Source: an uncultured Faecalibacterium sp. (GTDB taxonomy: Bacteria; Bacillota; Clostridia; Oscillospirales; Ruminococcaceae). Taken from it: a DNA stretch of 64,000 nt. The notes beneath the pieces were generated by a model, which had not been told where the DNA came from, did no database searches, and saw only the letters and a program-made list of their open reading frames with translations. Positions 4,044-12,266 of this stretch are shown piece by piece (within the stretch, counting starts at the first letter, position 1; each line of letters begins with the position of its first letter). Position numbers and translations under genes: made by a program. Location: assembly GCA_904394215.1 (NCBI GenBank), contig CAJFNF010000003.1, forward strand, positions 1 through 64,000, written 5' to 3'.

Positions 4044-4463
4044 ATGAAGAAGTTTTTTTCGATTTACAAGCCGGACATGTTCCGGGCGATTTTATATAAA
4101 ACGGTCAAGCGCGCATCTATAGCTTTGTGCGTCTGCCTGTTGTGGCAGCGCTTTCTGAGCGACGGCACCTTCACCATCTGGGAAGTGCCCTGCCTGGCGG
4201 TGGGGGCGGTGTTCCTGGGCTGGGCCTGGACCAGCTATCTGCGGCTGGACGGGATCCGCATCCCCTTCCTGGACCGGGGCAGGCTGTCAACCGAGCGCGG
4301 ACAGCGCCGCCGGGGCACCCACACCATGGCCGACTTCGCCGACGAGAAAATCGTCTCCTTTGACGAGCTGTCCCCCGAGGAAAAGTCCTTCTGCAGCATG
4401 CTGTCCAGCCTGATCCTGGGGGTTCCCATGGTCCTGATCGGCCTGGTGGCCGGCGTTTTGTAA
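4044..4463 (+). CDS. Small putative membrane protein of unknown function
   Basis: ATG at 4044 in the frame of ORF 2202..4463: MKKFFSIYKPDMFRAILYKTVKRASIALCVCLLWQRF...SSLILGVPMVLIGLVAGVL; hydrophobic segments; ends 10 nt before the next CDS. Confidence 0.65.
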   Translation: MKKFFSIYKPDMFRAILYKTVKRASIALCVCLLWQRFLSDGTFTIWEVPCLAVGAVFLGWAWTSYLRLDGIRIPFLDRGRLSTERGQRRRGTHTMADFADEKIVSFDELSPEEKSFCSMLSSLILGVPMVLIGLVAGVL

Positions 4464-4473
4464 GGGGGCAGCC

Positions 4474-7050
4474 ATGGGAGAGACAGCGAAACGCCTGGTG
4501 GTGGGTGTTCTGGCCCACGTGGACTCAGGCAAAACCACCCTTTCAGAAGCCATGCTGTACCGGTCGGGGGCCATCCGCAAGCTGGGCCGGGTGGATCACC
4601 GGGACGCCTTCCTGGACACCGACAGTCTGGAACGGGCCCGGGGCATCACGATTTTTTCCAAACAGGCCCTGTTCACCGCCGGCAGCACCCAGATTGCCTG
4701 GCTGGACACCCCCGGCCATGTGGATTTTTCGGCAGAGGCTGAGCGGACGGTCCAGGTGCTGGACTATGCGGTGCTGGTGATCAGCGGCCCCGACGGGGTC
4801 CAGAGCCACACCGAGACCCTCTGGTCCCTGCTGCGGCGGTGCCGGGTGCCTACCTTTTTGTTTGTGAACAAGATGGACCTGCCCGGCCCCGGCCGGGACG
4901 CCCTGCTGGATCAGCTGCGGCGCCGGCTGGGGGAGGGCTTTGTGGACTTCGGTGCCCCGGAGGAGGAGCGGAACGAAGCCCTGGCCCTCTGCGATGAGCA
5001 CCTGATGGAACAGTATCTGGCAGGGGAGCCCCTGGATGCGGCGGACATCGTCACCGCCATCGCCCGGCGGCATGTGTTCCCCTGCTGGTTTGGCTCGGCC
5101 CTCAAGGTGGACGGTGTGGACGGCCTGCTGGAAGGGCTGGACCGCTGGACCCGTCCGGCTCCGGCGGGGGAGCATTTCGGCGCCAAGGTGTTCAAGGTGT
5201 CCCAGGATGACCAGGGGGCACGGCTCACCTGGCTGCGGGTCACCGGCGGGGTGCTGAAGGTCAAGGATGCCCTCTCCGGCGGCCCCGAAGGGGATGGCTG
5301 GTCCGCCAAGGCCGACCAGCTGCGGCTGTACTCGGGGGCCAAGTACACCCTGGCCAATGAGGTGTACCCCGGCCAGGTCTGCGCCGTCACCGGCCTCACC
5401 GGCGCCAAACCAGGGGAGGGCCTGGGGGCGGAGCGGGACGCCGGGGACCCCCTGCTGGAACCGGTGCTGACCTACCAGGTTATTTTGCCCGAAGGGGCGG
5501 ACGTCCATACCGCTCTGGCCAACCTCCGCAAGATCGAGGAGGAAGTGCCCGAGCTCCATGTGGTCTGGGATGAGACCCTGGGCCAGATCCACGTCCGCCT
5601 GATGGGCGAGATCCAGCTGGAGGTGCTTCAGAGCATGCTGTCCCGGCGGTTCGGGCTGGATGTGACCTTCGGCGAGGGCGGTATATTATATAAGGAAACC
5701 ATCACCGAGCCGGTGGAGGGCGTGGGCCACTATGAGCCCCTGCGCCACTACGCCGAGGTGCATTTGAAGATGGAGCCCCTGCCTCCGGGCAGCGGCATCC
5801 AGTACGACATTGACTGCCGCGAAGAGGTTCTGGCCCGGAACTGGCAGCGGCTGGTGATCGCCAACCTGGAAGAAAAGGAGCACCGGGGGGTACTGACCGG
5901 CGCCCCCCTCACCGACGTGAAAATCACCCTGATTGCTGGCCGGGCCCACCTGAAGCACACCGAAGGGGGCGATTTCCGCCAGGCGGCCTGGCGGGCGGTG
6001 CGCCAGGGCCTGATGATGACCAAAAACGTCCTGCTGGAGCCCTGGTACCACTTCCGGCTGGAATTGCCCGCCCAGAACCTGGGCCGGGCCATGAACGACA
6101 TCCAGCAGATGGAGGGCACCTTCGGCCCCGCCGACCAGGAGGGGGAGACCGCCATCCTGGAAGGTTCGGCACCGGTCAGCGGCCTGCGGGGCTATCCCCG
6201 GGAGCTGGCCGGCTATACCCACGGCCGGGGCCGGATCACCCTGACCCCCGACAGCTACCGTCCCTGCCGCAATGCCGCCGAGATCATTGCTGCCTCGGGC
6301 TATGACCCCCAGCGGGACCTGGACAACACCCCCGACTCGGTGTTCTGCGCCCATGGCGCCGGCTATGTGGTGTCCTGGGACAAGGTGCGGGAGCACATGC
6401 ATGTGGACAGCGGCTGGGGCAAAGCCAAGCCTGACCGGGCCGAGGATCCCCAGCCGGTGCGCCGGGCAGCGGCCTTCCGGGCCTCCCTGGAGGACGACGC
6501 CGAGCTGATGAAGATTTTCGAGCAGACCTACGGCCCCATCAAGCGGGACCCCCTGGCTGCTTTCCGGCCGGCCAGGAGCGACCGGCCCGACTTCCAGGCG
6601 GAGCAGTGGAAGGTGCTGCCCGAATACCTGCTGGTGGACGGGTACAACATCATTTTCGCCTGGGATGACCTGGCCGGGATGGCCAAAGACAGCCTGGCCT
6701 CGGCCCGCCAGAAGCTGATGGACATCCTGTGCAATTATCAGGGATTCAAGCAGTGCGTGCTGATCCTGGTGTTTGACGCCTACCGGGTGCCGGGGAGCCC
6801 CGGCACCATCGAGCAGTACCACAACATCCATGTGGTCTACACCCGGGAGGCTGAGACGGCGGATATGTACATCGAGCGAGTCACCCATGAGATCGGCCGG
6901 GAGCGGCGGGTCCGGGTGGCCACCTCGGACGGGATGGAGCAGATTATTATTTTGGGCCACGGCGCCTACCGGCTGTCCGCCCGCCAGTTCCGGGAGGAAG
7001 TGGATCAGGTGGAGCGGGAGATCCGCCAGCTGGTCCGTCAGGAGGAATAA
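4474..7050 (+). CDS. Translation-factor GTPase of the Tet(M)/EF-G family with C-terminal NYN (YacP/Rae1-like) nuclease domain
   Basis: G motifs AHVDSGKTTL, RGITI, DTPGHVDF, NKMD; EF-G-like domains; C-terminal YLLVDGYNIIFAW...VLILVFDAYRV...VVYTREAETADMYIER...VATSDGMEQIIILGHGAYRLSARQF typical of YacP-like NYN domains. Confidence 0.88.
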   Translation: MGETAKRLVVGVLAHVDSGKTTLSEAMLYRSGAIRKLGRVDHRDAFLDTDSLERARGITIFSKQALFTAGSTQIAWLDTPGHVDFSAEAERTVQVLDYAVLVISGPDGVQSHTETLWSLLRRCRVPTFLFVNKMDLPGPGRDALLDQLRRRLGEGFVDFGAPEEERNEALALCDEHLMEQYLAGEPLDAADIVTAIARRHVFPCWFGSALKVDGVDGLLEGLDRWTRPAPAGEHFGAKVFKVSQDDQGARLTWLRVTGGVLKVKDALSGGPEGDGWSAKADQLRLYSGAKYTLANEVYPGQVCAVTGLTGAKPGEGLGAERDAGDPLLEPVLTYQVILPEGADVHTALANLRKIEEEVPELHVVWDETLGQIHVRLMGEIQLEVLQSMLSRRFGLDVTFGEGGILYKETITEPVEGVGHYEPLRHYAEVHLKMEPLPPGSGIQYDIDCREEVLARNWQRLVIANLEEKEHRGVLTGAPLTDVKITLIAGRAHLKHTEGGDFRQAAWRAVRQGLMMTKNVLLEPWYHFRLELPAQNLGRAMNDIQQMEGTFGPADQEGETAILEGSAPVSGLRGYPRELAGYTHGRGRITLTPDSYRPCRNAAEIIAASGYDPQRDLDNTPDSVFCAHGAGYVVSWDKVREHMHVDSGWGKAKPDRAEDPQPVRRAAAFRASLEDDAELMKIFEQTYGPIKRDPLAAFRPARSDRPDFQAEQWKVLPEYLLVDGYNIIFAWDDLAGMAKDSLASARQKLMDILCNYQGFKQCVLILVFDAYRVPGSPGTIEQYHNIHVVYTREAETADMYIERVTHEIGRERRVRVATSDGMEQIIILGHGAYRLSARQFREEVDQVEREIRQLVRQEE

Positions 7051-7052
7051 CC

Positions 7053-7934
7053 ATGGAACAGCTGTGTGAGGAGTTTGTTTTTTCCCGGATTCCGGCCCGG
7101 GCCCAGGAGAGCCACAAGGGCAGCTATGGCCACCTGCTGGCCGTGGCGGGGAGCCGCCGGTACCGGGGCGCCGCCAGCCTGACGGTGGAAGGGGCCCTGC
7201 GCACCGGGGCCGGCATTGTGACCTTGGCATCGGTGGAGCCGGTGCTGGCCGCCGTCACCGCCCGGCTGCCCGAGTGCTGCCTGCTGCCCTGCGGTGAAAA
7301 TGCAGAGGGGGGCATCAGCGCCGAGGCGGGGGAGGATTTGTCCCGGGCCCTCCAGAAGGCCACCGTCCTGCTGATGGGGCCCGGCATGGGGAACACCCCT
7401 GACACCCGGACCCTGGTCCGGCGCCTGGTGGGAGAAGCCAGGGGTACCGTGATCCTGGACGCCGACGCCCTCAATGCGGCGGCGGTTCTGCTGGCCGCAG
7501 GGGAGACCATGCCCCACCCGGCAGGGAACCTGATCCTGACCCCCCACCCGGGGGAGATGGCCCGGCTCACCGGACTGACCGCGGCGGAGATTGCCGCCGA
7601 CCCGGCGGGGGTGGCGGCCCGCTATGCAGAACAGTGGGACTGCACCCTGGTGCTGAAGGGCCACCGCACCCTGATTGCGGCCCCGGATGGCCGGATGTGG
7701 CAGAACACCACCGGCAATGCGGGCCTGTCCCGGGGCGGCAGCGGGGATGTGCTGGCGGGGATGACCAGCGGGCTGGCAGCCTGCGGCCTGCCCGCCCCCG
7801 AGGCGGCGGCCTGCGCTGTCTGGCTCCACGGGGCGGCGGCTGACTGCACCGCCGACCGCCTGGGCCAGTACGGGATGCTGCCCCACGATTTATTCACAGA
7901 TCTGGGGGACCTCTTTTCCCGCCATTACCGATAA
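7053..7934 (+). CDS. nnrD: ADP/ATP-dependent NAD(P)H-hydrate dehydratase (YjeF C-terminal type)
   Basis: KGSYGHLLAVAGSRRYRGAA, LTPHPGEMARL, NTTGNAGLSRGGSGDVLAGM motifs. Confidence 0.88.
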   Translation: MEQLCEEFVFSRIPARAQESHKGSYGHLLAVAGSRRYRGAASLTVEGALRTGAGIVTLASVEPVLAAVTARLPECCLLPCGENAEGGISAEAGEDLSRALQKATVLLMGPGMGNTPDTRTLVRRLVGEARGTVILDADALNAAAVLLAAGETMPHPAGNLILTPHPGEMARLTGLTAAEIAADPAGVAARYAEQWDCTLVLKGHRTLIAAPDGRMWQNTTGNAGLSRGGSGDVLAGMTSGLAACGLPAPEAAACAVWLHGAAADCTADRLGQYGMLPHDLFTDLGDLFSRHYR

Positions 7935-7939
7935 AAACC

Positions 7940-7976
7940 AACAGCGTGCCGCAAGAGATACGGCACGCTGTTTTTG
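7940..7976. terminator. Bidirectional intrinsic terminator
   Basis: AACAGCGTGCCG-caagagata-CGGCACGCTGTTTTT between convergent genes. Confidence 0.85.
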
Positions 7977-11045: not shown

Positions 11046-11074
11046 CAGCGGTCCTTCGGGGCCGCTTTTTTGTT
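11046..11074 (+). terminator. Intrinsic terminator
   Basis: AGCGGTCC-TTCG-GGGCCGCTTTTTT. Confidence 0.8.
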
Positions 11075-12266
11075 ACAGGGTGTAGCTGGCGGCGTTGATG
11101 ATGAGGTTGTCGGGGTCAGAGCTCTCCGCTTCCTCTTCATCGTCCTCCTTGGGCAGCACCTGGAAGGAGCCGCTGGCCACAGCCTCGGCGGCGCTCTGGA
11201 GCTCCGGCTTGCAGAAAATGAGGCCGCAGTCAAACAGGGACAGATGTTCCAGCACGTCGGCGGGGGTCAGATCGTCGGCCAGGTACACTTTGGGGCAGGC
11301 CACCAGGGTCAGCCCATCGGGGAAGGCGTCCAGCAGGTTTTTGTCCACCGTCATCTTCAGCTTGCCAAAGAGGGGCTTGCCCGGCAGGTAGAACACCTCG
11401 CCGTCCAGTACCGTCTCGGTGACGGCGTCCAGGGCGTCGGCCATGTCCTCGGGCAGGTAAATGTCCCCCTCCACCTGCAGGTATTCCAGATCCCCCAGGG
11501 CCTCGGCGCAGTCGGCGGTGAGGTACAAATCTCCCAGGACCAGCAGGCTATCCCCGTACCGGCGGAGGCCGGCGGCGTTGAGGGTCAGGTCATCCTGCAC
11601 CACCGAGGTGCCGTCGGGCAGCACCACCATCCGGGTGTCGGCGTCAAACAGGGGGGCCAGGCTGTCGGCCAGGGATTCGCTGACATAGGCCTCGGGCACC
11701 ATGAAGCGGGCACCCTTGGCGGCCAGCTCTTCCCCGTCCAGTTCCTCGTCCACGGCGATCAGCCGCTTGGCCGCCCAGTACAGCCGGGATTCCGCCCGCA
11801 GGGCAAAGGCCTTGTCCAGCACAGCGTTGTTTTTCAGCAGGACGGCCCCTTCGGGGTAGGTGTACAGCTTGCCGTTGAGGTCGGCCTTGCTGGCCAGCAC
11901 GGTGCCCAGGAAGTCGGGGCAGTAGACGGTGCCGTTGATGCTCATCCCCATATACTGGCGCAGGGCATCCCCGGCGTCGGGGGTGATGGTCAAAGTGCCG
12001 TTGATCAGCAGGTACTGGCGGCCGTTGGGGGTGTTGCGGCCGGTGAAGGTGGTCTTGCCGTTGAGGGTGTTGAGGGTGGTTTCGTCGTCCAGGTCGATGG
12101 ACTTGGAGCAGTTGATGTGGACGTTGTGCCGGGCCATCATGGCACGGGCGGCGGGGCTGGTGATCAGGATGGCGCAGTTGATGAGGATGGCGTCAAACTG
12201 GGCGAGGGTGTCCTCCTGGACTTTGCGGGTATCCACGATGGAAGCGTTGATGTTCATTTGTTTCAT
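11073..12266 (-). CDS. Repetitive solenoid-like protein of unknown function, co-transcribed with ECF sigma factor
   Basis: Recurring units such as YLLINGTLTITPDAGDALRQYMGMSINGTVYCPD and LLVLGDLYLTADCAEALGDLEYLQVEGDIYLPE; starts 4 nt after the upstream sigma factor stop; no signal peptide or TM seen. Confidence 0.75.
   Translation of the reverse strand: MKQMNINASIVDTRKVQEDTLAQFDAILINCAILITSPAARAMMARHNVHINCSKSIDLDDETTLNTLNGKTTFTGRNTPNGRQYLLINGTLTITPDAGDALRQYMGMSINGTVYCPDFLGTVLASKADLNGKLYTYPEGAVLLKNNAVLDKAFALRAESRLYWAAKRLIAVDEELDGEELAAKGARFMVPEAYVSESLADSLAPLFDADTRMVVLPDGTSVVQDDLTLNAAGLRRYGDSLLVLGDLYLTADCAEALGDLEYLQVEGDIYLPEDMADALDAVTETVLDGEVFYLPGKPLFGKLKMTVDKNLLDAFPDGLTLVACPKVYLADDLTPADVLEHLSLFDCGLIFCKPELQSAAEAVASGSFQVLPKEDDEEEAESSDPDNLIINAASYTL

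Follow-up and report, generated by a model that had tools for sequence, protein, structure and literature searches.

A translational GTPase joined to a YacP/Rae1-type NYN nuclease, a candidate replacement for free Rae1 in Clostridia

The gene considered here lies in a 64,000 nucleotide stretch of contig CAJFNF010000003.1 from an uncultured Faecalibacterium sp., referred to below as the window, and its features are collected in Table 1. The 858 amino acid product is made up, from the N to the C terminus, of an EF-G/Tet-type GTPase (residues 8-600), an extension (601-650), a linker and a YacP/Rae1-type NYN domain. A single frame combining a ribosomal GTPase with a YacP-like NYN domain had been proposed in the original prediction, made from the letters alone; the frame proved exact, and Pfam and structure matches agree with the assignment. 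The domain search suggested at that stage recovered both halves, with GTP_EFTU at residues 8-226 (E 2.6e-45), EF-G_D2 at 237-310, EFG_III at 329-400, EFG_IV at 404-515, EFG_C at 519-600 and NYN_YacP at 719-857 (E 3.9e-49). Solved structures matching the fusion include EF-G (234 bits), TetM (3j9y, 226 bits) and B. subtilis YacP (5mq8/5mq9, 85-90 bits), with TetO also among the nearest. The GTPase domains and the NYN domain are well modelled by AlphaFold (mean pLDDT 84.6 and pTM 0.62 for the whole chain), and a Foldseek search with this model matched EF-G and TetM across the GTPase part.

Table 1. Features of the fusion gene and its product, in window coordinates
Feature	Residues	Position	Strand	Basis or remarks
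Whole gene, GTPase-NYN fusion		4474..7050	+	Single ORF, 858 aa, stop codon included
G domain	8-226	4495..5151	+	Pfam GTP_EFTU and alignment
EF-G-type domains II, III, IV, V	237-600	5182..6273	+	Pfam EF-G_D2, EFG_III, EFG_IV, EFG_C; AlphaFold model
Domain IV tip loop GRAHLKHTEGGDFR	489-502	5938..5979	+	Alignment
C-terminal GTPase extension	~598-650	6265..6423	+	C598...SVFCAHGAGY.V.W..V..HMH; without Pfam entry
Flexible linker	651-717	6424..6624	+	pLDDT mostly <50
Linker motif DDAELMKIFEQTYGPIKRD	672-690	6487..6543	+	Pattern; E677 and T685 invariant in 21-sequence alignment
YacP/Rae1-type NYN domain	718-858	6625..7047	+	Pfam; alignment with B. subtilis YacP

The ATG of the fusion is preceded by GGGGG, which resembles a ribosome-binding site, and by an upstream stop ∼10 bases 5' of it; the neighboring upstream ORF (4044-4463) has no Pfam match. 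Downstream, a gene for NAD(P)H-hydrate dehydratase (7053-7934) starts 2 bases past the fusion stop and is separated by a 14-pair terminator-like hairpin (7940-7972) from a convergent ORF that resembles a methylated-DNA methyltransferase (PCHR motif). Elsewhere in the window a repeat-like ORF of 397 aa on the reverse strand (11073-12266) is without a Pfam match, and no RNA leader or attenuator family of Rfam was matched within the window.

All of the elements by which a translational GTPase of the EF-G/Tet branch is recognized, that is G1, the G3 motif DTPGH, the G4 motif NKxD and domains II-V, are present in the fusion. The G-domain motifs read AHVDSGKTT (residues 14-22), DTPGH with His82, NKMD (132-135) and SAL (208-210), and in an alignment of 21 fusions they are, DTPGH included, invariant or nearly so. 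The earlier description of the module as Tet(M)/EF-G-like is therefore sound as regards motifs and domains but too close as regards kinship, for the GTPase is only ∼30% identical to Tet(M) and belongs to a sister family. In quick maximum-likelihood trees, calculated without bootstraps, the fusion family is the sister of Tet(M/O/W/S/Q) and does not fall inside the Tet clade (99% for the family clade, 100% for the Tet clade), with EF-G separate from it (support 98-100). Scored with the NCBIfam profile tet_protect (NF012153) the fusion reaches 386.7 bits, half the cut-off of 775, and unfused relatives 355-425 bits, as against 879.8 for Tet(M) itself.

The tip of domain IV reads GRAHLKHTEGGDFR in the fusion, compared with GLYYSPVSTPADFR in Tet(M) and GSYHEVDSSEMAFK in EF-G. 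Absent from the fusion is the Tet(M) tip loop SPVSTPADF with Pro509, a residue of importance in that protein. The core of the tip, KHT.GGDFR, is near-invariant in the GTPase family (LKHTEGGDF in the window protein), and because the loop is identical in kind (HT.GGDFR) in fused and unfused members the GTPase presumably had a ribosomal function of its own that predates the fusion. A Tet-like GTPase of Paenibacillus jilunlii (L180:3998-5956; 34% identity) was also encountered that lies in the Tet clade yet is without the SPVSTPADF tip and represents a further uncharacterised branch.

The extension that follows domain V (residues 601-650) is small, is folded in the AlphaFold model, and is present in the unfused GTPases too. 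The linker beyond it is disordered in the model and variable across fusions except for one motif with the consensus (D/E)E(L/I)xxIF(E/N)xTYG (EL..IFE.TYG), usually separated from the NYN domain by 24-32 residues, which a loose pattern finds in 63 of 77 fusions and which occurs as variants in several others. No counterpart of the motif was seen by eye in unfused GTPases, most of which stop near residue 650, and a PDB search with the extension plus linker returned chance matches only. One genome with an intact standalone rae1 (G206) has a leftover of 44 aa that corresponds to the C-terminal GTPase extension of the fusion (L257), perhaps from a lost fusion gene.

The C-terminal domain scores 167.3 bits against Pfam NYN_YacP (cut-off 24.6). 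The name Rae1 for YacP reportedly dates from 2017, and from what is known of Rae1 and of NYN/PIN folds we take residues D722, D768, D797 and D819 of the fusion, which align with D7, D53, D81 and D104 of B. subtilis YacP, to be catalytic. These four residues, together with N725 and Q823, are invariant in 77 of 77 fused and 42 of 42 standalone NYN domains, so that a loss of the acidic residues across homologues, which had been named as an outcome that would count against the prediction, was not seen. The proposed Rae1/YacP type holds for the fold and the four Asp residues but not for the C-terminus, since the fused domain stops ∼25 residues short of the end of Rae1.

What is missing there is a basic motif, (L/F)EK(I/W/L)RR, with which standalone Rae1 proteins end and which we describe here as a feature found in the present analysis, not as a published criterion of the Rae1 family. 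The pattern [WILMVF]R[RK] matches 36 of 41 standalone tails and none of 77 fusions, counts that come from a standalone set enriched for best-scoring sequences and that are not independent among relatives; 34 fusions end before the position of the motif and in the remainder the tail is eroded. Over the last 12 residues the net charge averages -0.25 in fusions and +2.3 in standalone proteins. In the one genome with both intact forms (G283) the standalone copy has the tail and the fused copy does not. Genomes that encode the GTPase and Rae1 as two separate proteins retain the tail, and the constraint on it thus seems to be relieved by physical linkage. Mapped on the tree, tails must have switched between short and long 14 times or more, and the losses appear confined to essentially one clade, as would follow from one founding event with later truncations. 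In B. subtilis the tail reads FEKWRRG, R166 being the second Arg, and loss-of-function suppressors in rae1 include R166P and a deletion at nucleotides 469-473 (PMC6613710).

To establish how the fused and free forms are distributed we searched 392 genomes from the class of the window's own genome, taken to be Clostridia from their named relatives, for NYN_YacP; it is present in 249, and frame lengths were obtained for 230. Among these, 123 are fused (at least 600 aa), 101 are standalone and 6 are of intermediate length, probably because of contig edges. The standalone frames span 160-216 aa, with one longer frame sitting at the standalone locus. Because the same long frame recurs in 123 of the 230 classified genomes and in named assemblies, the fusion is not an artefact of assembly; the genome of the window itself has one NYN_YacP, the fused copy. 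Intact copies of both forms occur in G283 only, among the 230 classified genomes, where independence would give ∼32 of 392 genomes with both (123 x 102 / 392), a rough expectation given shared descent. Second NYN matches in three other genomes (G120, G174 and G208) are sub-threshold and belong to another protein.

The standalone gene is found in the order cysS-mrnC-rlmB-rae1-sigH, followed in several genomes by nusG-L11-L1, the names being those that we presume from homology and general knowledge. Fused genes do not occupy the rlmB-rae1-sigH position, and among 21 fused loci neither common neighbors or an operon partner nor mobile neighbors were found. One genome with the fusion (G369, L149:6104-6833) retains a truncated and decayed rae1 between rlmB and sigH, apparently a replacement caught in the act; in genome G191 no rae1 remnant was found in the 594-base rlmB-sigH gap. 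Judged from these gene contents, fused and standalone YacP appear to exclude each other, the fused gene standing in for rae1, and the fusion appears to have displaced free Rae1 in about one half of the sampled Clostridia that have a YacP, Lachnospiraceae and Oscillospiraceae included.

Near-complete fusions (73% and 48% identity) are also encoded on two scaffolds from faeces deposited under the name 'Bacteriophage sp.' (L136, L137; MT835563 and MT835514), which are probably bacterial DNA. Both are unverified records without annotation, and the possibility of a phage gene was set aside for that reason.

A tree built from 119 NYN domains places all 77 fused domains in one group, which includes a single standalone row, the lone NYN domain of genome G209. 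The fused or standalone state requires 2 changes on this tree versus a shuffled mean of 34.7, with support of 91 (quick method) for the key branch, and since the fused domains form one clade bar this one row, a single joining in evolution is indicated. Unfused GTPases of Neobacillus, Intestinibacter, G566, G589, G319, G209, G178 and G287 make up a clade of their own next to the fused GTPases and probably represent the ancestral state. A separate YacP is also encoded by the first six of these, and none was found in G178, G287 or the two Bifidobacterium genomes that carry an unfused GTPase; most standalone-Rae1 genomes examined are without the GTPase. Each half can thus live alone, some pairs occurring apart within one genome, while elsewhere the two are one chain. 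The unfused GTPases of Ligilactobacillus, Bifidobacterium and Collinsella are placed inside the fused clade, and therefore the NYN domain has most likely been lost there. One of them, on a Ligilactobacillus salivarius megaplasmid (L117:5992-7926, NZ_CP123972.1), is annotated as TetM/TetW/TetO/TetS resistance, scores 381 against the cut-off of 775 and adjoins rpsN (S14) and an IS3 transposase.

The lone NYN domain of G209 (L145:4790-5308; L255) is of the fused type and lies away from rlmB-sigH, in a genome whose GTPase is encoded separately and groups with the unfused ones. It would reflect either a pre-fusion state or a re-split of the fusion; secondary fission was not retained as a settled reading, as the GTPase belongs to the unfused clade and the arrangement may be a pre-fusion state.

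As far as the sequences allow one to judge, both the GTPase and the NYN active site are complete, and the two were apparently joined one time, through a flexible linker with a conserved helix motif. Free Rae1 is an A-site mRNA endonuclease, as cited in PMC6613710 and PMC12320835. On balance we favor the view that the fusion replaces Rae1 in Clostridia, as an endonuclease that depends on the ribosome and is brought to it by the translational GTPase on the same chain. The GTP form of the GTPase module would bind stalled or slow ribosomes with an empty or blocked A site, as Tet and EF-G factors do, and GTP hydrolysis with withdrawal of domain IV would clear the A site; the tethered NYN domain would then enter it and cut the mRNA there, as Rae1 does, after which exonucleases would take over the mRNA and the ribosome would be rescued. 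Docking to the ribosome, which in free Rae1 would be done in part by the basic C-terminal tail, would have passed to the GTPase, and the tail would for that reason be lost or eroded in all fusions seen. That the tail docks free Rae1 to the ribosome, and that the GTPase replaced this docking, is our main new prediction, although the tail could instead bind a non-ribosomal partner; in B. subtilis, rlmB (yacO) and rae1 belong to the same pathway (PMC6613710).

The original prediction proposed GTP-dependent entry into the A site together with mRNA cleavage by a single chain. Since domain IV of EF-G and Tet proteins and Rae1 all have their place in the A site, the two modules are unlikely to occupy it at one time and more likely act in turn. 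The same competition between domain IV and the NYN domain for the A site would count against our best explanation, as does the confinement of tail loss to essentially one clade. The narrower claim that hydrolysis of GTP by the Tet/EF-G-type module licenses the tethered nuclease to cut A-site mRNA on stalled ribosomes is advanced tentatively, with somewhat more doubt than belief. The chief rival is a plain tether not gated by GTP, in which one chain performs two independent jobs, the GTPase merely holding Rae1 on the ribosome and its cycle having no control over cleavage. Each half occurs without the other, which also counts against our best explanation: the GTPase must have work of its own to do and perhaps does none for the nuclease; consistent with two jobs are the GTPases that exist without any YacP (two Bifidobacterium, G178, G287), a domain IV tip unchanged by fusion and the probable second loss of the NYN domain in the Actinobacteria/Ligilactobacillus branch. 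Loss of the Rae1 tail after fusion and a linker motif at near-fixed spacing from the NYN domain suggest, on the other hand, modules that cooperate, and we consider the two-job arrangement unlikely, if by no means far-fetched.

Tetracycline resistance, or resistance to another A-site antibiotic with the RNase adding to the mechanism (Atkinson 2015), has in its favor the strongly supported sister relationship to Tet(M/O/W/S/Q), the published guess in PMC4342817 and the Ligilactobacillus relative on a megaplasmid beside an IS3 element. Set against these are a tet_protect score of 386 bits where true Tet(M) has 880, replacement of the SPVSTPADF loop, one copy per genome in mutual exclusion with a housekeeping rae1, and neither conserved or mobile neighbors in 21 loci nor, within the window, any leader or attenuator of a known family. 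On the grounds of score, tip loop and distribution we dropped tetracycline resistance as the main reading, and the original prediction, which had spoken of a rescue or quality-control enzyme rather than a resistance protein, gains support from the same evidence; the fusion is unlikely to be a typical tetracycline-resistance protein and we judge resistance of any such kind improbable. A role in processing rRNA or tRNA on ribosomal particles goes back to an older prediction for YacP-type NYN domains by Anantharaman and Aravind, as cited in PMC4342817, and would fit with standalone rae1 adjoining rlmB, an rRNA methyltransferase gene; with Rae1 since described as cutting mRNA in the A site, in work that PMC6613710 and PMC12320835 cite, we regard it as highly improbable. 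Even less credence is given to a role in phage defense or abortive infection through the cutting of mRNA on ribosomes, for which the fused GTPase-nuclease layout and the two gut contigs filed as phage might speak, but the contigs are unverified and unannotated, no PADLOC model is matched, no neighborhood is conserved, and across whole families most members carry the gene once.

Rae1 being a known A-site mRNA endonuclease of Firmicutes, the fusion makes it possible to test directly how stalled ribosomes recruit a nuclease, and for B. subtilis it predicts that the WRR tail is the ribosome anchor of Rae1. If GTP licensing is true, the fusion would be a translational GTPase with a built-in nuclease and would make a main co-translational quality-control cut of mRNA in a large share of Clostridia. 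It is in any case a widespread putative translation-linked RNA cutter and probably no drug-resistance gene, and similarity alone is insufficient to call the fusions or their unfused relatives, such as that on the Ligilactobacillus megaplasmid, tetracycline-resistance genes. The statement in the original prediction that similar clostridial proteins are annotated only as 'translation factor GTPase family' turned out to be right for Monoglobus.

Compared with known systems, the fusion shares with Tet(M) and Tet(O), its nearest sister clade, five EF-G-type domains, the G motifs and the length of the tip loop; it differs from them in the tip (KHTEGGDFR in place of SPVSTPADFR), in the C-terminal extension and in falling under the resistance-family cut-off. 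With EF-G it has in common the domain layout and a His (H492) that aligns with the conserved tip His, whereas its GTPase belongs to another clade, is shorter overall and has a shorter first loop in domain IV. The unfused sister GTPases have the same GTPase, HT.GGDFR tip and C-terminal extension included, but neither linker nor NYN domain. B. subtilis Rae1/YacP (5mq8, 5mq9) has the same NYN fold, the four active-site Asp residues and the 'TADxxIE' and 'ATSD' motifs; the fusion adds an N-terminal GTPase and a linker, is without the FEKWRRG tail (R166) and lies away from the rlmB-sigH locus. Atkinson 2015 noted that 'Tet' proteins of ten Clostridiales species had gained a YacP-like NYN RNase domain and guessed at an RNase-aided resistance mechanism (PMC4342817). 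These proteins, of the same architecture and from the same kind of bacteria, are almost certainly of the same family, although they are treated there in two sentences, without a phylogeny of the fusion or a link to Rae1, and our literature search found no paper on the fusion after Atkinson 2015. The GTPase-NYN architecture was thus already known, and what is new is the pattern of replacement, the single origin, the placement of the GTPase as a sister of Tet(M/O/W/S/Q) with a different tip, the loss of the tail and the linker motif.
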